The position numbers and the translations under genes were made by a program. Source: Buxus sempervirens (lineage: Eukaryota > Streptophyta > Magnoliopsida > Buxales > Buxaceae). Taken from it: 64,000 nucleotides of DNA. Location: positions 6,944,001-7,008,000 of the forward strand of contig OX387193.1 of NCBI GenBank assembly GCA_947561395.2. The letters are read 5' to 3'. Positions 25,999 to 56,394 of this stretch are shown here, one piece after another. The notes under the pieces are model-generated. The model worked only from the letters and a program-made list of their open reading frames with translations. It was not told where the DNA came from and searched no databases. How positions within the stretch are numbered: position 1 is the first letter of the stretch; each line of letters starts with the position of its first letter.

Positions 25999-26372
25999 TT
26001 ACGACTGCAATACTCAAAGTGGACGTCGCTGTACCGAAACAGTAACTGACGGGCAATGAGGTGATGTCTTACTAAGAGAACTGACGGCGTAGGAGCTAAC
26101 AGCTAATTGCTAGCTTGCGCCAAATGCGTGTGCGACCTGTTTGTCAATCCCGCACGTGTTCTTAAGACCTTAAACTAAACATTTCTTTTTCACAGCTGGA
26201 GTCATGTTTTGACTCTCTTTCCGCGAATTCCCCACGGACTTGACCCCTCCTGAGTCCTGCCATCTGAATCCCTCCTCCTCCGATCCTTAATATAACCTAA
26301 CATGACCTCACTTGATACCTCTCTCATTAAACCCCTTATCCTTCACCCCCCATAAAGCCCCCTATTGGATAC

Positions 26373-27086
26373 ATGGCTGATGACCCTCCCACTAACGTGC
26401 GCCAAGCAGACCAACCACCACCACCTGATCCTCCTCCTCCTCTTGGAAACCCAGGAGAGCCATCCCCACAATCATCTTCCCTTCCCACGTGTGATAGCCC
26501 ACCAGTTCAACTGCCTCATCCACCAAAGACTACCATGCCCACCACCTCTTCTGGTGGTTCAACTAACCAACCCACCGCCGGAAAACACCCTTTGTATAGA
26601 GGAATCCGCTGCCGGAGCGGGAAATGGGTGTCGGAAATTCGTGAACCACGTAAGACTACACGAATATGGCTTGGTACGTACCCTGCACCGGAAATGGCTG
26701 CTGCAGCTTACGACGTGGCCGCGCTGGCCCTCAAAGGTGCAGGAACTGCTCTCAACTTCCCGAACGAAGTCCATTCCTACGCGATTCCGGCGTCTGCATC
26801 TCCGGCAGATATACGAATCGCAGCAGCTAGTGCAGCGGCGTCGAGACAGCCGAAGCCGGAAACCAGTGACACCCCAGAAGTCCGTAAGCCTGAGAGTGGT
26901 GAAACGACCAGTACTGGATTGGCAACAGGAGAAGAATTCGTCGACGAGGAGGCGCTTTTTAACATGCCCAAATTGCTGGTTAACATGGCAGAGGGAATGC
27001 TGGTGAGCCCACCAAGGATAAACTCGCCGCCGTCTGACGACTCGCCGGAAAATTCAGATGGAGAAAGTTTGTGGAGCTATTCTTGA
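26373..27086 (+). CDS. ERF025: ERF025-like AP2/ERF transcription factor (DREB group III), copy A
   Basis: Intronless gene of 237 aa. A proline-rich N-terminus (residues 1-72) is followed by one AP2 domain at about 74-131 ([20 protein letters not shown], then [20 protein letters not shown], then ALNFP), with the Val and Glu of the WVSEIRE block that mark the DREB branch. After it come an alanine-rich helix ([12 protein letters not shown]), an acidic block with [20 protein letters not shown] (about 193-212) typical of the ERF025-027 clade, and the final LWSYS. Such factors bind DRE/GCC-type elements in the nucleus; the clade's own role is poorly known. A TATA-like TTAATATAACC lies at about 26287-26297. 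The start gives the usual MADD-type N-terminus. The gene lies between the TraB gene and the CBF array, the same neighbours as Arabidopsis ERF025. A near-identical copy is at 38323-39036. Confidence 0.95.
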
Positions 27087-30000
27087 GAAGGTTCATTTAC
27101 CAACTATCACCAAAAAGATCATAAAATCTTTAGGAAATTAAACAATGAAGCTGCAACATATTAAAGGGGGAAAAGGGTTAATTTTGATCAGAGGATTGAG
27201 AATAGAGTGATTTGAACTTGGATGGTTCTTGAGTTGATATGATGGTTTAAAAAATTCAGCTCAACGACATGAATTCATGCGTTTGCAGGGTTTCAGTTGT
27301 CTGGTATTTATTAGTTATGCGCGTTGGATGATAAGAATAGCTTTGTATGTAGATTGATTGAACTCAATGAAACCGGTGAGATATGAACTGGTGATGCTGG
27401 AATTTGCGCCACGTGCCCTTCTGGGTGCCTGTTATTTTTCTTGTTAATTTATTTTCAATTCTTATGGCTGTGGGCATAGCTGAGTCTCTCACCTCGCTGT
27501 GTCTCATTAGAAAAAAGGAAAGGCTCTAGCCTAATAAGGACACGACCGGGTCACAAGACGATAGGTCCATCTTTAAATTAAGGAGAACATAAACTGATAA
27601 TCTCTCTCTCTCTCGCGTTTAGACAGTAAGGATTTGATGTGAAATTGGAGGCATGTTCTCTCTAGATATGTAGGTACAAAACTACAAATGGGGTTTTGCT
27701 TTTTGATTTCAGTATTAATTACTGCTGTCGAGCTTATTTTCAATTTCAATCAAAGCTACAGAGCTTTAAAGCAAGGTCATTGCCGATGCCGACCATGTTC
27801 CCTTCGCTTATATGTCAATGGTCCCGCCAATCTTTTACTTTCTGGGTGTTGTAGACCTTTAGTTCTAAGTTTCTAAGTTCTAACTTCTAACGACTCTCTA
27901 ATTCAGTAGTTCTTTCGAGATCCACAAATAGAAACCAATATCTTCCAACAAAGAAAAAGAAAGTCGGAATTACTTTTTTTCTCGACCATATAGTTGAACT
28001 ACATCAACGCGCATCGATCGTGACATCTTTGCTCAGGTCGGCAAGAAATTAATTACATGGCATGGCAAGTGCAGATGATCAATGAGAACCATTCACTTCA
28101 ATTAAATATGGATTCTCGTAGTTCTAAAGTTACCCATAACTCTTAATTATCGTTTGAGGCTTCTTCAAAATCTTAAAGTGCACATCACTGATGAATTCAT
28201 CTAAGCCATCCTATTAAAGGGTTTCAAGGGATTTATATTCTCTCTCTACTTCTCTCTCTATTTTGTGTAAGATAAAGAGAGAGAGAGAGATTTGGTTTTT
28301 AATTGGCTCAGCTAGCTAGACCAATCACTAATACCAATATTGAAATCTAGAAGTCAACCAAGAATCTATTTACGGGCCATCAATTCAAGTTTAAGTGAGA
28401 GATTAAACAAGGGTTCTGTTGTAATATTTGAGGGAAATGGAACAGTGAAGGGAAGTCGGCCATGACCATGAGAGCTAAAGTGGAGTATCAACTATCAAAG
28501 CTGAAAGTTGCTGTCTCCCTTTTGAACGGCAAATTAAAAGGAAGAAAAGAAGAACATACAGAGATGCGGTCGCGCTAATCCATATGATTTCCTTAGAAGC
28601 CGAAATCCTCAAAGTTTGAATTGAAAGAAACTTTTGACTGCCGTAAGACATTTCTGTACCAATCACATAATAACCGGCTGGTCATACGTCTTCTTCCTAC
28701 TCCATCCTCTCTCTCTCTCTCTCTCTGAGTCTTGGAAATGCCCTTGAAGACAGAGTCAATGACTGGAAAGCCCTGTGGGAAGGAGGTTGGTGAACTGACC
28801 TGAGAAGGTTCGTGGTTTTGTTGGACAACTTGACCTAGAAGATGACCGAGAAATTATCAAAGAATCCCATCATTTTAGGCTTTCTTGTAGACAAACGTGT
28901 CTAGAAAAAGATAATTACATCCCTGTACTGTAGATTGCATCGCGTTATAATTATAAGCTGTTTCTCTGAACACTGATGAAACCACATGGCTGAGTGGATT
29001 CTTTTTACACTCTTAACCACTAGAAGCTATGTACGACAGCAACACCTGGTGACTGGGTGAGGCTTCGCTGAACAATATTCTTGTTTACTGTGTTGCGATT
29101 TTCTCGGTCTTCTTGCAAGCTCCCACAAGAAAATTTCCAAGAAAGTAGTAGTAGGTGCAAGTCCTGAAGTGCATCCAAGAAACATAAAATTTTTTTAGAT
29201 GGTAATAGGAAAATATTTACCCAACAAGAAGTTGAACTGTTAATGATCATTCAGTCAGACATGTATGGGTTTTGGAGGTTTTCTGAGAAAGAACCACCAA
29301 CTATATGTGGGGATCGTCCCACCACCAATATAATCCATTCCTATTCTGGTAACCAAAAAAAGGGGGGATTTTCAAAGCGTCTTCATGGCCTAGCCAAATT
29401 AGTACTCTACTTTAACTTGTTTTGAATATAATTTATCTAATCATCCTTTATTGGAGTTGAAAACCTGTGAACAGTTAAGAGTCGAGGGAGAAAAGAAATG
29501 AAAAATGAGTGGAAACCTGTGCATGTGATAATCAAAACCAGGCATGATAACCCCTTTTACTTTCTCAATTATTATCAGTCCACTTGCTAGAATATATTTT
29601 ATAACCTTTCAGTACAATACAAAGCAACAAACCCGAGATTTTCGTTTAAGACAATTATATAACAATTCAGAACAAGATTCTGGATATTATTGTAGATATA
29701 AGGGATGATCGATGAAGATTTACTATATTTGATGCTTTCCACCATGGAAAGGTTGAGAGCCTCAGCCATCAATTAACTAAAAGAAATGCTAATGAACCGA
29801 GGAATGTCGGCATCATATGATGGCAATAGAGAGGTGCACACCACTTGGGTGGCTGTGGACATCCATTGGTTAGTGTACTCGAATACAGAAAAGAATAAGA
29901 GGGGACAAACATCCAACGTGGTAGACAGTATATCTATCTCTTTTCTGGGTTGGGTTTTTAAATAGGATCAAGAAAGTGACTTTCCTCTTTTAGTCTTACT

Positions 30001-30713: not shown

Positions 30714-33700
30714 CACCCAAACAGCTCCAGTAAAGCTAGTTTCTGCTGGAAATTAAGGGCCATTACCAATGAAAATTAACCTTGACCATCTTAATCCTTG
30801 TTCTTCTTTGGGGTTTTCCTTCCTTTCTAAGAATGAGCTAGTTTTTATATTATAACTTTTAAGTACTTGATCATGAAGTCCGATTAAAAAGATGCAATTA
30901 CCTGGTTGACTACTGCTAATTACACTCACCCTCAAAAAAAATAAAACTGCTTTTTATGAGTGGTGTGATGATTAATATGAACAAGATGAGTTTGATCATA
31001 GTCCTTAGGAGATGAGCCAATCGCTTCTGGATTAGCAGCTCGGAGACCTGCCTCTCTCATCAGATCTCATTGGTGGGTTTCTCATATTTTGAGGATCCTG
31101 GCCTATAATGTGATCAAAACTTGTTCTGGGCTGTGATGCTTATTGAGATTATCATACACAAGCCTGCCCATATCTTCAGAAATTTAATTTAACCTATCAT
31201 CATCAATAGATAGACAGAAATGGAAAAATCCTCAGAATTGATTAATCTCAAGTACTGACATGATTCCATGAACTCCTTTGGTATACTTAATTATTATCAT
31301 ATAGTCTTACTTTCAGAGGCTGAAATCTTTGATAGCCGATGAATCAAAGAAGCAAACTAGAATAGCCCAAATAGAGCCCAGGTTTGACCCTGTCCACCAG
31401 TAGCCTGACCTGCTTGGGTCACACGTGGGCCCCCGGCGGTGGACATGTGAACTTCATGGCATGCAACAGCTTCCACCGTCAGTCAACTGAATTCTCAGAG
31501 GTTTAATTTGTACCATATTAGGTCAAATCTGGATTTGGTTGTTGGGGACACTTCATGGCATGCATGCAACAGCTTCCACCGCCAGTCAAACAAAATCTAG
31601 GAGGTTAATTTAATTTATACCTTAGAAGAAGGTCAAATCTGGATTTGGTTCTCCGACCGCACGCAGTTTAATTACTTACTGATAATGAAAACTAAACCAC
31701 TCTTATTGACTCACCTTATTAGATTCAGAATCCATCTTCAGGCCAAATTCTAGATCGAGTCAGAGCTTTCAGGGTCACCTAATCCTTATCTGACTTCAAG
31801 TTTCGGTGACAAGTTTTTCCCTCGGAATTTTCGATGCGACGCACCGGCGTCACAGAAGAGGCGTTTCTTCTCGCCCACAGAAGAGATGACCAGGAAGATT
31901 AGTGGCTTCGCTCCACTCAGTCAAAAGCTTGAACCTTTGACCAAGTGAATATAACAGATATGGTCTTTGTTCAAGCCGCCTTGGCCCGGCCCGGCCCTAT
32001 GGTCTGAGGCTTGTAGGACTATACCCAACCTGCCCAGTTAAAAGCTATACCAAGCCTTAGACCCACTGTTGAAAAATAAAGAAATTTGTTTTTTGCCAAT
32101 AATGAAATATATGTATATATAAGAGAGATCAAAATTATAAAGAAAATTAAATATACAAGAATACAAAAAAAAAACAAGCTATAAAATAACTATTAGCCCC
32201 GCATGAGAATTCTAATACATGACCAAGCCCTCCCAAGAAATTATCAGGCTTTCTAAAAATTTTGCCCAACCCAACCCAATGGACAACCAACAAGCCTGTC
32301 GAAGAATGAGCCAGTCATCCCAGGCCGGACCCATGAACACCCCTAGATAAAAGGACAAGGTTGGTGAAGGCCTACCCCCATCGTGACCATAAATTTAAGT
32401 TATAAAATCAAGTTAGGTTGGATTTCTAGGTTTATAATAAAATCTTGCTGACATAACCCAATTAGGTATTAATTTACTCTTCCAAGTTAAACTTGTATTC
32501 TTAAACCTATCTACATACATATCACGATCAACCCAACCCAACTGTGATCCAATACCCAAAAAAAAAACCTTATTGCCACCTCTTGCAAGCGGTTCTTTCA
32601 TAACTACACTCATCAAATCACAACTTGCATGATGATCCAATTCGTTGTATCAGTAAAACTAGAGATTAACAACCTAGCAGTTGACCCATCCAGCATTACC
32701 ATCGTTAAAGAACATTCGAGGATCACTTCAGAGTCCGGGTCAACTATTAACTTCAAGTGCTGGGTTGAACCGGGCCGCCGTCGTCTGTTCGGGGTATATC
32801 CGGTCCAGACTGGTCCGGATTCTAAGAGCATTGAAGGACGAGGTCACTCTCCATGCTCGCGAGTTTAAGGGGACCCACAAGCTTTTGGGGGATATTTATA
32901 AAAGTGTTGAAAATGGACCACGTGATCCACGCGCTTCAACTGGCGGTTACTTTATAACAAAGCTTCTAACTGTCAACCGTGTTTTCTTTTTCTTTTTATC
33001 TGATATGAAAAATCTTATCCTCACGTCATTTTAAGATTGAAAGCTGTTCTTTGTCTCCGTATGCCACGTCACTCTTCCTTTCGTACTTTAGTTTGCAGCT
33101 TTCTCGGAAGTGAAGTATGATACGAGGAGTACATTCCTCGCCGATCTATCATAAGCAAAATCACGTCCACATATATTCATTATAAACTAAATTAGAAATG
33201 ACAAACTATTTGACAAAAATCAAAATATAATACAAAATATTCTAAAATTGAGATGGGCTTTATTATCAGAGAGGATTCTTTAAATGTTTCTTTTGAGACC
33301 AATCTCTCCTCCACCCGCTTTAAACATTCCTCATCTCCCTTTGTTAGGGGATGAAGTTGTCTGCAATGTAAGGTTTCATTAGCCCCTACTGTTGGAGTGC
33401 GACTGATGATGCTTTTGTGTGATCAACGGTTTTTTTTTATTTTGTAAAAGTATTATATGGGGACCACTTTAAAAAAAAAACCATTGATCGTTAGATGCTT
33501 TACGTGAAAGCATCTTACTCCGACAGCAAAGGCCATATAGAGCCTTAAATTGCAAACAATTTCATCCCCTCCATGAGGCGCCCTCTATACAAAAGTAGAC
33601 CCTAACAATCTTACTATTAGTAAAGTCAACCTTCGGAAATATTCATTAGGGATTCTAGCCCTCTTTTTTTCTCCCATAAATATCTTTCACAACAAATGAA

Positions 33701-35291: not shown

Positions 35292-35930
35292 ATGGATGCC
35301 TTCAATACTACACAGTACACCGACACACTCTCATCAACGTCTGATACAGGCATCAAACTCCGGGGAGTTTCGTATGAGGAGGTTTTGCTTGCGTCGGATC
35401 GTCCGAAGAAGCGCGCCGGCCGAAAGAAGTTCAGGGAGACTAGGCACCCGATATATCGCGGTGTCAGGCAGAGGAATTCCGATAGGTGGGTATGCGAGAT
35501 GCGCGTGCCGAACAAGAAGTCAAGGATCTGGCTTGGGACCTTCCCGACTGCGGAGATGGCCGCCCGGGCTCATGATGTTGCTGCAATGGCACTTAGAGGC
35601 AAGTCTGCATGTCTTAATTTTGCAGACTCGACATGGCGTTTGCCAGTTCCCGACTCCGCTAGTGCCACTGATATTCAAAAAGCTGCTGCAGAAGCAGCAG
35701 AGGCTTTCAGGGACTCGGAATCCGATCAAGGAGTGGCTTCTGCTGATGATAAGAGAACAGTAGTGGACGCAATAATGTTGCCGGAGAACTTGTTTTACAC
35801 AGACGAAGAAGCTGCAAGCATGGCAGAATGGCGGATATTCTCTCCAAATCCTTATATGCGAACGACTGGGTTCGATTGGGATGACATGGAAAACAATATT
35901 GACGTGTCGTTATGGAGTTACTCCATCTAA
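35292..35930 (+). CDS. DREB1: CBF/DREB1 transcription factor, copy A
   Basis: Intronless, 212 aa. The CBF signature [16 protein letters not shown] (residues 38-53) precedes the AP2 domain (54-111: [40 protein letters not shown]). It is followed at once by DSTWR (112-116), the counterpart of the canonical DSAWR. The acidic C-terminal half holds [10 protein letters not shown], and the protein ends SLWSYSI, the LWSY activation motif. Family knowledge: CBF/DREB1 proteins bind CRT/DRE elements and switch on cold and dehydration genes; the signature helps nuclear import and DNA binding. Position 19 of the AP2 domain is Val (V72), not Glu. CBF-A has Met70 where the other copies have Val. The start fits the conserved MDAF N-terminus shared by all copies. 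The promoter has a TATA box 90 bp upstream and a hAT insertion further up. Confidence 0.96.
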
Positions 35931-36630: not shown

Positions 36631-37978
36631 AAACAAGAAGCATAAGCATGAATACAGCAAGTCCCGAAGCATTTGTGTACAGTCAAACAGCCTAGGAACC
36701 TAAATTTTGATAAATTTGCACATGGAGGCAACAACAGTAAAATTTTCTTGTGAACTCATGATTTTATCTCCATTTTAATGGTGGCAGGCCACAATATATA
36801 CCATTCCCATAATACTCATAATATTTTGTGGGACCTTTTCTTTGCCCAAATGGCATATGTACTTGATCATACAAACAATTCTATCCCTCTTTTCTTTCCA
36901 TCCCAATTCCCCCCTAACAACCACCCCAAAACCACACCCAAACAGATCCAGTACAGCTAGGTTCTTCTGGAAATTAAGGGCCATTAACAATGAAAATTAA
37001 CCTTGACCATCTTAATCCTTGTTCTTCCACTTGGGGTTTTCCTTCCTTTCCAAGAATGAGCTAGTTTTTATATTATAACTTTTAAGTACTTGATCATGAA
37101 GTCTGATTAAAAAGATGCAATTACCTGGTTGACTACTGCAAATTACACTCACACACAAAAATAAACTGCTTTTTATGAGTGTTGTGTTGATTAATATGAA
37201 CAAGATGAGTTTGATCATAGTCCTTAGGAGATGGGCCAATCACTTCTGGGTCAGCAGCTCCGAGACCCTGCCTCTCTCATCAGATCTCACTGGGGGTTTC
37301 TCATATTTGAGGATCCTGGCCTATAATGTGATCAAAACTTGTTCTGGGTTGTGATGATTATTGAGATTATCATACACAAGCCAGATCATATCTTCAGAAA
37401 TTTAATTTACGTATCATCATCAATAGATAGACAGAAATGGTAAAATCCTCAGAATTAATTAATCTCAAGTACTGACATGAACTCCATTGGTATACTTAAT
37501 TATTCTCAGAGGTTTAATTTGTACCATATTAGGTCAAATCTGGATTTGGTTCTTGTGGACACTTCATGGCATGCATGCAACAGCTTCCACCCCCAGTCAA
37601 TCAAAATCTAGGAGGTTAATTTAATTTATACCTTAGAAGAAGGTCAAATCTGGATTTCGTTCTCCATGCAGTTTAATTACTTGTAGGCATCAAAATTGTG
37701 TAAGACCCAACCCAAATTTGTAAATGAGTTTGTAAAAATACATCTTAGTAAGCCCAATTGTGAGTTCATATCTCACAAGATAAATATGGATTATTTTAAT
37801 TTAAAATTTCTTACTTATCCCTTAAAGGATAAATTTATAAATTCCTTGTAATTTTAACTCTATAAATAGGGGGCTTGGTTATAAGGACACACATCAAATC
37901 AAAGATAACTAGAAGGTTGAAGTTTTAGAGAAATTCTCTTGAAGAAAAAACCCTCAATATAAAGAAAATTGAAGAGAA

Positions 37979-37992
37979 AACCCTCCACCAAA
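37979..37992 (+). repeat. Left 14-bp direct repeat flanking the ERF-B segment
   Basis: AACCCTCCACCAAA, identical to 39265-39278. It belongs to the LTR, so it looks like a duplication made when the ERF segment was inserted. Confidence 0.85.
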
Positions 37993-39264
37993 AACAAAAA
38001 CTGACGGCCTAGGAGGTGATGTCTTAGTAAGAGAACTAAGGGCATGGTAGGGAACAGCTAATTGCTAGCTTCCAAATGCGTGTGCGATCTGTTTGGGAAT
38101 CCCCACGTGTTCTTAAGACCTTAAACTAAACATTTCGTTTTCACAACTGGAGTCATGTTTTGAATCTCTTTCCGCAAATTCCCCACGGACTTAACCCCTG
38201 CTGAGTCCTGCCATCCGAATCCCTCCTCCTCCGGTCCTTAATATAACCTAACATGACCTCACTTAATACCTCTCTCATTAAACCCCTTATCCTTCACCCC
38301 CATAAAGCCCCATATTTGGTACATGGCTGATGACCCTCCCACTAACGTGCGCCAAGCAGACCAACCACCACCACCTGATCCTCCTCCTCCTCTTGGAAGC
38401 CCAGGAGAGCCATCCCCACAATCCTCATCCCTTCCCACGTGTGATAACCCACCAATTCGACTGCCTCATCCACCAAAGACTACCATGCCCACCACCTCTT
38501 CTGGTGGTTCAATTAACCAACCCACCGCAGGAAAACACCCTTTGTATAGAGGAATCCGCTGCCGGAGCGGTAAATGGGTGTCGGAAATTCGTGAACCACG
38601 TAAGACTACACGAATATGGCTTGGTACGTACCCTGCACCGGAAATGGCTGCTGCAGCTTACGACGTGGCCGCACTGGCCCTTAAAGGTGCAGGAACTGCT
38701 CTCAACTTCCCAAACGAAGTCCATTCCTACGCGATTCCCGCGTCTGCATCTCCGGCAGATATACGAATCGCAGCAGCTAGTGCAGCGGCGTCGAGACAGC
38801 CGAAGCTGGAAACCAGTGACACCCCAGAAGTCCGTAAGCCTGAGAGTGGTGAAACGACCAGTACTGGATTGGAAACAGGAGCAGAATTCGTCGACGAGGA
38901 GGCGCTTTTTAACATGCCCAAATTGTTGGTTAACATGGCAGAGGGAATGCTGGTGAGCCCACCAAGGATAAACTCGCCGCCGTCTGACGACTCGCCGGAA
39001 AATTCAGATGGAGAAAGTTTGTGGAGCTATTCTTGAGAAGGTTCATTTACCAACTATCACCAAAAAGATCATAAAATCTTTAGGAAATTAAGCAACGAAG
39101 CTGCAACATATTAAAAGGAGAAAAGGGTTAATTTTGATCAGAGGATTGAGAATAGAGTGATTTGAATTTGGTGGGTTTTTGAGTTGATATGATGGTTTAA
39201 AAAATTCAGCTCAACGACATGAATTCATGCGTTTGCAGTAGTTGCATGGTTTCAGTTGTCGGGT
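37993..39264 (+). repeat. Dispersed duplicate of the ERF-A locus (about 26044-27306)
   Basis: Near-identical to ERF-A from about 330 bp upstream of the ATG to about 220 bp past the stop. The match begins at CTGACGG just inside the left direct repeat and ends at CAGTTGTCGGGTA just before the right one. Promoter and 3' flank were copied together with the gene, and no poly(A) tail is present. Confidence 0.9.
38323..39036 (+). CDS. ERF025: ERF025-like AP2/ERF transcription factor (DREB group III), copy B
   Basis: Intronless, 237 aa, full-length and open. It differs from ERF-A at eight positions, all outside the AP2 domain: five in the proline-rich N-terminus (for example S42N and Q46R) and three after the domain (P to L, A to E and E to A near residues 162-190). 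The AP2 domain (about 74-131) and the final LWSYS are identical. The copied upstream region keeps the TTAATATAACC box before the ATG, so the gene may be expressed on its own promoter, or from the LTR TATA box near 37860 that points the same way. It sits inside a solo LTR within tandem unit 2, between CBF-A and CBF-B. Function should match ERF-A; whether it is used is not visible here. Confidence 0.93.
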
Positions 39265-39278
39265 AACCCTCCACCAAA
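39265..39278 (+). repeat. Right 14-bp direct repeat flanking the ERF-B segment
   Basis: AACCCTCCACCAAA, identical to 37979-37992; LTR sequence continues directly after it. Confidence 0.85.
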
Positions 39279-40931
39279 GGCGAAAACAATTCAAAGGTAG
39301 GAGCAGATCCTCCATCCAAAGAAAAAAGACACACTTCTCTTGAAGAGAAAACCTCTTCCCAAAGAAAAACTTCTCTTAAAGAAAAAGTCTCCTAAAGAAG
39401 AAAGGGGCACTTCTCTACAAAGAGAAAATCCTCTTTCAAGTCAACAGATAAGCTGAAGCAAGCGCAAATCCCGGAGTGAAAGAACACCTACAACCACTCC
39501 AAAACTGAAGAACGCCACCTGACATTTGTCTACTCCAAACAGCTCGTCAATCAGAGGACGTTCACGTGATTGAGCACCAAAGAGAGTAAATTCCTTATTT
39601 GTATCAAATTTTCTTTATTCTTATTATTTGTAATCACCGTATTTTGTGTTAAAGCAATAAACACGAAATTTGTGTGTACACTTACTGATAATGAAAACTA
39701 AACCACTCCTATTGACTCACCTTATTAGATTCAGAATCCATGTTCAGACCAAATTCTAGATCGAGTTAGAGCTTTCTGGGTCACCTAATCCCTTTTTCCC
39801 TTCAACAAGTTTCTGTGATAAGTTTTTTCCTTGGAATTTTCAATGCGACGCACCCTCGTCATGGAAGAGGCCTTTCTTCACGCACACAGAAGAGTGGACC
39901 TAGGCTTCACTTGGTCTGAGGCTTGAACCTTTGACCAAGTGAATCTAAAGAGATATATAGTCTTTGTTCAAGCCGACCCCGCCCGATGGTCTCAGGCTTG
40001 TAGTACTGTACCCAACCTGCCCAGTTAAAGGCTAATACAAAGCCTCAGCCCGACTATTGAAAACAAAAATAAAACCTTTTTTTTTTTTTATATAAGAGAG
40101 ACCAAATATACAAAGAAAATTAAATATACAAGAATACAAAAACACAAGCGTTCAAAATCCAAATTTAAGCACTTTATATGTACATATTGTAGAAAAAAAA
40201 AGTTATACTTATAATATTAGTTAAAATACATAAAATAAATATTAGCCCCCACCAGGAATTCCCATACATGACCAAGCCTTCCCAAGAACTTTTCAGGCTT
40301 TTAAAAATTTTGCCCAACCCAGCCCTATGGACAACGAACTATCGTGTCGAAGAACGAGTCAGTCATCCAGGCCGAGACGGGCCGGACCCATGAACACCCC
40401 TAGATAGGACAAGGTTGGTGAAGACCTACCCCATCATGACCATAAGTTTTAAGTTTAAAAATCATGTTCGGTTGGACTTCTAGGTTTATAATAAAATCTT
40501 GCTGACATAACCTAATTAGGTATTAATTTACTCGTGCAAGTTAAAGTTGCAATCTTAAACCTATCTAGATACATATCACGATCAACACAACCCAACTGTG
40601 ATCCAATACCCAAAAAAAAAAAAACCCTTATTGATACCTGTTGCAAGCGGTTCTTTCATAACTACACTCATCAAACCACAACTTGCATGATGATCCAATT
40701 CGTTGTATCAAAAAACCTAGAGACTAACAACCTAGCAGTTGGCCCATCCAACATTACCGTAAGTAAATGCCAACAACTTAATTCTATTGTTAAATAACAT
40801 TGGAGGATCACTTCAAAGTCCTGGTCAACTGCTAACTTCAAGTGCTTGGTTGAATCGGGCCGCAGTAACTTGGTCTAGATTATCCGGTTCTGATTACTCT
40901 GGATTCTAAGACATTGAAGGACTAGGTTAAT

Positions 40932-44610: not shown

Positions 44611-46450
44611 CTACCAAGTTGTCATTGAAAAAACAAGAAGCATAAGCATGAATGCAGCAAATCCCGAAGCATTTGTGCACAGTCAAACAGCCTAGTAACC
44701 TAAATTTTGATAAATTTGCACATGGTGGCAACAACAGTAAAATTTTCATGTGAACTCATGATTTAATCCCCATTTTAATGGTGGCCACAATATATACCAT
44801 TCCATAATACTCATAATATTTTGTGGGACATTTTCTATGTCCGCATGGCATATGTACTTGACCAGACAAACAACTCTATCCCTATTTTCTTTCCATCCCC
44901 ATTCCCCCCTAACAACCACACCTCCAGTAAAGCTAGGATCTGCTGGAAATTAACGGCCATTACCAATGAAAATTAACCTTGACCATCTTAATCCTTGTCT
45001 TCCACTTGGAGTTTTCCTTCCTTTCCAAGAATGAGCTAGTTTTTATATTATAACCTCAAGTGCTTGATCATGAAGTCTGATTAATAAGATGCAATCACCT
45101 GGTTGAATACTGCTAATTACACACTCATACACAAAAATAAAACTGCTTTTTATGAGTGGTGGTGTTGATTAATATGAACAAGATGAGTTTGATCATAGTC
45201 CTTAGGAGATGGGCCAATCACTTCTGGGTCAGCAGCTCGAGACCCTGCCTCTCTCATCAGATCTCACTGGTGGATTTCTCATATTTGAGGATCCTGGCCT
45301 ATAATGTGATCAAAACTTGTTCTGGGCTGTGATGCTTATTGAGATTATCATACACAAGCCTGCCCATTTCTTCAGAAATTTAATTTAATGTATCATCATC
45401 AATAGATAGACAGAAATGGTAAAATCCTCAGAATTAATTAATCTGAAGTACTGATATGAACTCCTTTGGTATGCTTAATTATTCTCAGAGGTTCAATTTG
45501 CACCATATTAGGTCAAATCTGGGTTTGGTTCTTGTGGACACTTCATGGCATGCATGCAACAGCTTCCACCGCCAGTCAAACAAAATCTAGGAGGTTAAAT
45601 TAATTTATACCTTAGAAGAAGGTCAAATCTGGATTTGGTTCTCCAACCGCACGCAGTTTAATTACTTACTGATAATGAAAACTAAACCACTCTTATTGAC
45701 TCACCTTATTAGATTCAGAATCCATGTTCAGTCAAAACTCCAGATCGAATCAGAGCTTTCAGGGTCACCTAATCCTTATTTGACTTCAACAAGTTTCAGT
45801 GACAAGTTTTTCCCTTGGAATTTTGGATGCGACACACCGTCGTCGCAGAAGAGTTGACCTAGAAGATGAGTGGCTTGGCTACACTTAGTCAAAAACTTGA
45901 ACCTTCGACCAAGTGAATATAAGAGATATGGTCTTTGATCAAGCCGGCCCGGCCAGGCCCCATGGTCCGAGGCTTGTAGGACTATACCCAACCTGCCCAG
46001 TTAAAAGCTATACGAATTCTCAGACCGATATAAGAGAGATCAAAATTATATCTATAGATCATATTATAGATAAAAGTTTATATCTATAATATTAGTTTTA
46101 ATATATAAAATAACTATTAGCCCCGAACGAGAATTCTCATACATGACCAAGCCCTCCCAAGAACTTATCAGGCTTTTAAAAATTTTGCCCACCCAACCCT
46201 ATGGACAACCAACAAGCCAATCGAAGAACGAGCCAATCATCCTAGGCCGAGATGGGCTGGACCCATGAACACCCCTAGATAAAAGGACAAGGTTGGTGAA
46301 GACCTACCCCCATCGTGACCATGAGATTAAGTTTTAAAATCAAGTTAAGTTGGATTTCTAGTTTTACAATAAAATCTTGCTGACATAACCCAAATAGGTA
46401 TTAATTTACTCATGCAAGTTAAAGTTGCAATCTTAAACCTATCTAGATAC

Positions 46451-55386: not shown

Positions 55387-56394
55387 ACACCTCCAGTAAA
55401 GCTAGGATCTGCTGAAAATTAACGGCCATTACCAATGAAAATTAACCTTGACCATCTTAATCCTTGTCTTCCACTTGGAGTTTTCCTTCCTTTCCAAGAA
55501 TGAGCTAGTTTTTATATTATAACCTTAAGTGCTTGATCAAGAAGTCTGATTAATAAGATGCAATCACCTGGTTGAATACTGCTAATTACACACTCATACA
55601 CAAAAATAAAACTGCTTTTTATGAGTGGTGTGTTGATTAATATGAACAAGATGAGTTTGATCATAGTCCTTAGGAGATGGGCCAATCACTTCTGGGTCAG
55701 CAGCTCCGAGACCCTGCCTCTCTCATCAGATCTCACTGGTGGGTTTCTCATATTTGAGGATCCTGGCCTATAATGTGATCAAAACTTGTTCTGGGCTGTG
55801 ATGCTTATTGATATTATCATACACAAGCCTGCCCATATCTTCAGAAATTTAATTTAATGTATCATTATCAATAGATAGACAGAAATGGTAAAATCCTCAG
55901 AATTAATTAATCTCAAGTACTGACATGAACTCCTTGGTATGCTTAATTATTCTCAGAGGTTTAATTTGTACTCTATTATTAAGTCAAATCTGGATTTGGT
56001 TGTCGTGGACACTTCATGGCATGCATGCCACAGCTTCCACCGCCAGTCAAACAAAATCTAGGAGGTTAATTTAATTTATACCTTAGAAGAAGGTCAAATC
56101 TGGATTTGGTTCTCCGACCGCACGCAGTTTAATTACTTACTGATAATGAAAACTAAACCACTCTTATTGACTCACCCTATTAGATTCAGAATCCATCTTC
56201 AGGCCAAATTCTAGATCGAGTCAGAGCTTTCAGGGTCACCTAATCCTTTTTTGACTTCGACAAGTTTCGTTGACAAGTTTTTCCCTTGGAATTTTGGATG
56301 CGACGCGTTTCTTCTCGCCCACAGCAGAGTTGACTAGAAGATGAGTGGGTTGGCTTCAATTAGTCAAAAGCTTGAACCTTTGAGTAAGTGAATA
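55387..56394. repeat. Truncated tandem unit 4 (D block only)
   Basis: Begins CTCCAGTAAAGCTAGGATC as in unit 3 and follows the D block up to AAGTGAATA, where the Helitron end cuts in. No fourth CBF gene is present in the window. Confidence 0.85.

Follow-up and report, generated by a model that had tools for sequence, protein, structure and literature searches.

The window analysed here, 64 kb of contig C19 in an assembly of 676.5 Mb, contains several AP2 genes in a row. Three of them, at 35292, 43212 and 53681, encode proteins of 212 aa that we take, from their amino acid sequences, to be CBF/DREB1-like, and diverged tandem units run around them. The other two, ERF-A (ORF 26373–27086) and ERF-B (ORF 38323–39036), each encode 237 aa in an uninterrupted frame. 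Pfam recognizes an AP2 domain in all five—at residues 73–122 in ERF-B (PF00847, 41 bits). Positions are counted from the first base of the window, and the parts of the ERF-B locus, its donor and the empty LTR sites all lie on the + strand. ERF-B sits within a solo LTR, and the solo LTR within one of the tandem units. An initial annotation of the window had proposed these three nested layers—unit, LTR and ERF patch—and all three stand.

The outermost layer is read from the site into which the LTR inserted. The empty form of this site, TTAATTACTTACTGATAATG, occurs exactly in three paralogous units, at 31668–31687, 45658–45677 and 56129–56148. The empty site had at first been assigned to units 1 and 3, with the LTR in unit 2; the LTR insert and the empty sites are as described, but the empty units number three rather than two. 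The sequences flanking the solo LTR, TTACT on the left (37677–37681) and CTTAC on the right (39681–39685), are shifted by one base, making an imperfect target duplication, and do not restore the empty site exactly. Compared with the empty sites, they fit either a 4-bp duplication (ACTT) or a small later change. By eye, clean 5-bp target duplications flank five other members of the family (L003, L010, L018, L026 and L031).

The LTR itself, 37682–39680, is defined by the ends of its family. It begins TGTAGGCA, which is the exact start in 27 of the 36 relative rows, and ends TGTGTACA, the exact end in 17 of the 36, with small variants in most of the others at either end. It is solo: a single LTR with family-typical ends and no internal region, with unit 2 sequence on both sides. 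Without its insert and one copy of the 14-bp repeat discussed below it measures 713 bp; relatives that lack long interruptions are mostly 637–768 bp. The left part (37682–37992), which ends with the first copy of the repeat, has 45 matches in the genome, and the right part (39265–39680, searched as 39279–39680) has 42, counts that include the LTR's own place and fragments, with 40 candidates scored in each search. The family is dispersed in the genome. For comparison we used the 36 best-scoring relatives from the same genome, which amount to 34 distinct LTRs, L004 overlapping L022 and L006 overlapping L027. Scanned in six frames, the stretch behind one of these LTRs (L054, behind L008) contains retrotransposon gag and reverse-transcriptase RNase H domains, which points to a family of the Ty3/gypsy type; its closer placement may be near Tat/Ogre. 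The LTR also has imperfect internal subrepeats.

What interrupts this family member is not another transposable element but a host gene. The insert, 37993–39264, is 1,272 bp long and comprises the whole ERF-B locus. It is 95.4% identical to the ERF-A locus at 26037–27306, which alignment, together with comparison to an outgroup gene on C9, identifies as the donor. In a blastn search, 26037–27288 aligns with 37992–39238 at this identity over 1,252 columns, and in a local alignment the match continues past a 9-bp indel to 27306/39265, ERF-B having near its 3′ end 9 bp without counterpart in ERF-A. Much as first described, the patch is a near-identical 1.27-kb copy that includes some 330 bp of sequence upstream of the ATG and 220 bp past the stop codon. 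It has the same orientation as the donor and lies 10.7 kb from it on one contig. Among the seven matches found in the assembly, all of them scored, only ERF-A and ERF-B are near-identical loci; the runner-up, on C9, reaches 72% identity across part of the insert. Misassembly of a simple duplicate is unlikely, since 47 of 1,250 aligned bases distinguish ERF-A from ERF-B.

The patch is bracketed, as the initial annotation had it, by an exact 14-bp direct repeat, AACCCTCCACCAAA, at 37979–37992 and 39265–39278, and no third site lies elsewhere in the 64-kb window within two mismatches. Among 200,000 random pairs of positions 1,286 bp apart, flush repeats of at least 9 bp turned up 22 times, a figure in which draws of the true site are not separated out. 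At either end the ERF homology takes in just one base of the 14-mer, an A, and goes no further. Extension of the homology beyond the repeats, named earlier as a finding that would speak against an insertion, is thus absent. The homology does end at the repeats, as had been expected, but the 5′ edge is less sharp than that implies: it is rich in A and uncertain by a few bases, with an AAACA match, two mismatches and then AACTGACGG. Inspected by eye, neither edge of the patch carries poly(A) or poly(T)—a run of five A at the 5′ edge includes the repeat's own AAA, and it is not at the 3′ end—and neither shows terminal inverted repeats or Helitron ends. Junction microhomology, also judged by eye, is weak: AAA at the 5′ junction and about 1 bp at the 3′.

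Unsplit relatives reveal where the repeat came from. Nine of the 34 distinct LTRs contain the exact 14-mer, once each and unsplit (L010, L011, L012, L016, L018, L020, L029, L032 and L037); the proof of the duplication had been made to rest on such unsplit copies, and they exist. Not one of the 34 fetched relatives has two exact 14-mers, the arrangement that would have spoken against a duplication at the time of insertion. In four (L011, L012, L016 and L029) a second copy with two mismatches lies 41–86 bp away. The break site can be aligned at 11 or more of the 14 positions in 30 of the 34, the exceptions being L006, L028, L031 and L034, in local alignments that allow gaps and leave inserted bases uncounted, as in L024. 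The left copy of the repeat, with the 10 bp upstream of it, matches the relatives' single site, and the right copy runs on into the LTR sequence that follows that site. In eight relatives (L010, L011, L012, L013, L018, L025, L029 and L037) the matches to the two arms overlap, and the overlap is precisely the 14 bases of a single site; the left copy therefore has the flank upstream of that ancestral site, and the right copy the flank downstream of it. Judged by these relatives, and with one ancestral site to start from, the 14-bp repeat is a real target-site duplication.

On the three relatives examined, the LTR family does not appear to be a hotspot for patches. Four other relatives are interrupted (L016, L021, L022 and L035), and the inserts of the three examined, L022, L016 and L035, are multicopy, with at least 41, 47 and 131 matches, respectively, own place and fragments counted, and are hence nested repeats rather than patches. 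The insert of L022, at L022:1781-3038 (C11:8821935-8823192), with its at least 41 matches, breaks the LTR within the subrepeat region that the ERF patch also interrupts; it is about 1.26 kb long and has internal repeats offset by 69 bp.

ERF-B differs from ERF-A by eight amino acids, none of them within AP2 residues 73–122, and the original description of an intact gene with an unchanged AP2 domain holds. Over the coding sequence dN is 0.015 and dS 0.053 (NG86). In 12 of the 17 coding differences the C9 gene sides with ERF-A, and in none with ERF-B; it agrees with neither at four and is unaligned at one. Within the part aligned by blastn, from codon 69 onward, the score is eight to none, and binomial estimates for 12:0 and 8:0 are 0.0005 and 0.008. 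All 12 of the coding changes that can be polarised fall on the ERF-B branch, which makes ERF-B, going by this one outgroup, the derived copy and the one that has changed faster. Six of the 12 are replacements and six are silent, so relaxed constraint is as likely as function for ERF-B. Differences in the C/G-to-T/A direction outnumber the reverse in ERF-B by 18 to 7; decay driven by methylation was sought as a cause and is unproven, only four of the 18 being at CG sites. Two ERF-like matches lie at C9:45414019-45419274 (L041 and L042); these may mark a duplicated partner of the ERF/CBF region, perhaps from a genome duplication.

Upstream of ERF-A, a 25-bp noncoding block (26097–26121, 252–276 bp above the ATG) is 92% identical to sequence 187–211 bp above the ATG of the C9 paralogue L041 (E 6.5e-5 in a pairwise search). 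We consider this block a candidate regulatory element. Its core was copied along with the gene: 19 bp of the donor (26098–26116) are unchanged in ERF-B, at 38053–38071. The CACGTG of ERF-A is kept in the patch, too; the C9 gene has none within 500 bp. No match to the pattern TATA[AT]A occurs within 500 bp of ERF-A. A TATA-like sequence, AATATAAC, was located by eye, with the clear TATA box that the C9 gene has at –63 as the guide; the patch reaches some 250 bp upstream of this TATA-like sequence.

The LTR has a TATA of its own, and the initial annotation suggested that ERF-B could now use it. The position given then, near 37860, agrees with ours (about 37861, by eye), but the distance to the ERF-B ATG is nearer 460 bp than 450. 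Five other ATGs lie in the stretch from the presumed LTR start near 37890 to the ATG of ERF-B, four opening short frames that close before the gene begins and one opening a frame that overlaps the ERF-B ATG. An LTR transcript would thus make a poor messenger, and these upstream ATGs disfavour use of the LTR promoter. The copied native promoter would be the likelier driver of ERF-B, if anything drives it.

How did the gene come to be there? The explanation that fits best, and one in which we have considerable confidence, is that a break whose ends were staggered by 14 nt was mended by patch-type, synthesis-dependent repair. Repair of this type from a template 11 kb away was part of the first reading of the locus, and with a donor at 10.7 kb, promoter DNA in the copy and no poly(A) it is still the best fit. 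Nesting gives the order of events: units, then LTR, then patch. A retrotransposon would have inserted into one tandem CBF/DREB1-like unit and then shrunk to a solo LTR. Later, this LTR would have been broken by nicks 14 bp apart on opposite strands. The broken end finishing in the A-rich ...CACCAAA would then have primed synthesis at an A-rich spot above ERF-A, and 1.27 kb of genomic DNA, from the promoter through the uninterrupted gene to the 3′ flank, would have been copied. This newly made strand would have been joined to the other end of the break without notable homology, and fill-in at both staggered ends would have doubled the 14 bp. The sequence itself shows the donor and the copy, the one ancestral 14-mer, the nesting, the promoter DNA and the lack of poly(A); that the break was staggered, that strand invasion (SDSA) did the copying and that end joining closed the gap are steps that we infer. 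The exact 14-bp duplication is consistent with fill-in of staggered ends, and the conserved 25-bp block in the copy, the reach of about 250 bp above the TATA-like site, and the lack of poly(A) all argue that the template was DNA.

One set of numbers sits awkwardly with this order. Silent divergence between ERF-A and ERF-B is 0.068 in the 5′ flank and 0.054 in the 3′ flank, beside the coding dS already given; unit 2 diverges by 0.045 and 0.053 from two of the other units, neither of them the one near 31 kb. Divergence of the patch (0.053–0.068) is therefore not below that of the units, contrary to what the nesting implies. Faster change in ERF-B, or conversion among the units, could lie behind the mismatch. 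The patch site was compared within one assembly.

A replication fork, rather than a break, might have done the copying. Under FoSTeS/MMBIR, the fork would stall in the LTR, switch to ERF-A, copy 1.27 kb, and return to a point 14 bp upstream of its departure, yielding an equal templated DNA copy and a direct repeat. The location of the donor on the same contig, 10.7 kb off and in the same orientation, and the A-rich microhomology at one edge would suit such an excursion well enough, and the sequence offers no feature that separates template switching from break repair. The return 14 bp upstream would have to be a matter of chance, however, while a short duplication follows straight from staggered ends, and the edges show no further rearrangement. 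We regard fork switching as improbable.

Retroposition of the LINE type has less in its favour, and we give it little credence. By this account a long read-through transcript of ERF-A underwent target-primed reverse transcription, and the 14 bp are the usual target duplication; such duplications span a range that includes 14 bp. Introns cannot decide the matter because the ORF is uninterrupted in both genes. The edges, though, lack poly(A) or poly(T) by eye, and the copy starts some 250 bp upstream of the TATA-like site, taking in the conserved block 252–276 bp above the ATG. In PMC2671141, target duplications accompany 12 of 17 poly(A/T) events, but it is to events with poly(A/T) tracts that its authors assign retroposition. 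An ordinary processed retrogene is rejected on similar grounds: the patch exceeds the presumed transcript, as set by the TATA-like site placed by eye, and has no poly(A).

Could both 14-mers have been subrepeats of the LTR from the start, the insert having replaced whatever lay between them? The LTR does contain imperfect internal subrepeats, and a second copy with two mismatches lies 41–86 bp off in four of the 34 relatives. Two exact copies occur in no fetched relative, however, and in eight relatives the left and right copies carry the upstream and downstream context of one site, which leaves this account with very little probability. Least credible of all is that a DNA transposon or Helitron captured ERF-A and brought it into the LTR: such elements do carry plant genes, but we know of no class of DNA transposon that a 14-bp duplication would fit, the edges lack terminal inverted repeats and Helitron ends by eye, and the search of the assembly gave no other near-identical copies. 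Judged by the edges and the relatives, we reject the LINE, subrepeat and transposon accounts.

Patch-type repair, which we prefer, is a known mechanism—repair-mediated duplication, filler DNA and gene movement are all familiar—and what is notable here is the size and the completeness of the patch. Many gene duplicates cannot be assigned a mechanism because their breakpoints have decayed or sit in unknown sequence. At this locus the unsplit form of the LTR is known, the donor is close by, and the target duplication has no mismatch, which allows the event to be followed at single-base resolution. As an instance of a known route of gene duplication it is unusually clean and long, combining a whole gene and its promoter with an exact duplication and a donor that can be read, and it suggests that repair of the patch type can supply an entire regulatory gene, promoter included, beyond mere fragments. 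A bolder proposal, which we put forward as a doubtful one, is that break repair here amounted to one-step gene birth, placing a complete stress-type transcription factor gene and its conserved promoter block into an LTR and creating a second working gene, controlled jointly by LTR and native elements, that is evolving faster than its parent. In the titles and abstract openings found, no AP2/ERF or CBF-cluster gene is named as having been copied into an LTR by repair.

Similar events have been described for other genomes. Wicker, Buchmann and Keller reportedly found in 2010 that genes move in grass genomes by gap patching. As proposed here, a gene-bearing fragment served as filler DNA in SDSA repair of a break; their break was reportedly tied to insertion or excision of a transposable element, whereas ours lies inside an old solo LTR where no such event is seen. 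In rice, Vaughn and Bennetzen are said to have described in 2014 a patch-mediated process of break induction and repair with insertions of 10–1,000 bp. Those inserts, too, reportedly lie between short duplications from staggered ends, but ours is longer and contains an intact gene. In the literature found, the gene-patch mechanism is reported for grasses and vertebrates. That a gene-bearing fragment can act as filler DNA in SDSA repair in plants is stated in PMC3445842, with a similar statement for foreign segments at transposon excisions in PMC4423477. Filler DNA in maize is also copied into the repaired break from nearby, but the sizes quoted in PMC2686159 are 1–131 bp, none a whole gene, against 1.27 kb and a whole gene here. 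Of 27 recent non-colinear rice genes, according to PMC4812662, 14 are ascribed to end joining, 12 to transposable elements and one to homologous recombination. In mouse cells, staggered Cas9 breaks undergo fill-in and then end joining to give short duplications (PMC8355091).

A close parallel comes from vertebrates. In Pace et al. 2009 (PMC2671141), transposable elements are interrupted by duplicates of single-copy sequence, with target duplications of 4–21 nt and microhomology of 2–9 nt. None of the 39 proximal events examined there has poly(A). Summing the entries of their table, we count target duplications in six of these 39 poly(A)-free proximal events, in seven of 12 poly(A)-free interchromosomal events, and in 12 of 17 events with poly(A); by the first two counts, duplication is not the rule in such events. 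Proximal events are up to 619 bp long, with donors within 5 kb; those of the distant class reach 3,424 bp, with donors up to 122 Mb away. The ERF-B patch, at 1.27 kb, is longer than the proximal maximum and shorter than the distant one, and its donor, 10.7 kb off, lies outside the 5 kb of their confident class. Theirs are vertebrate events, and ours involves a whole gene with its promoter. Otherwise the resemblance is close: a transposable element split by a duplicate of single-copy DNA from the same chromosome, without poly(A), its edges marked by weak, A-rich microhomology on the 5′ side and by a short target duplication that falls within their range of 4–21 nt.
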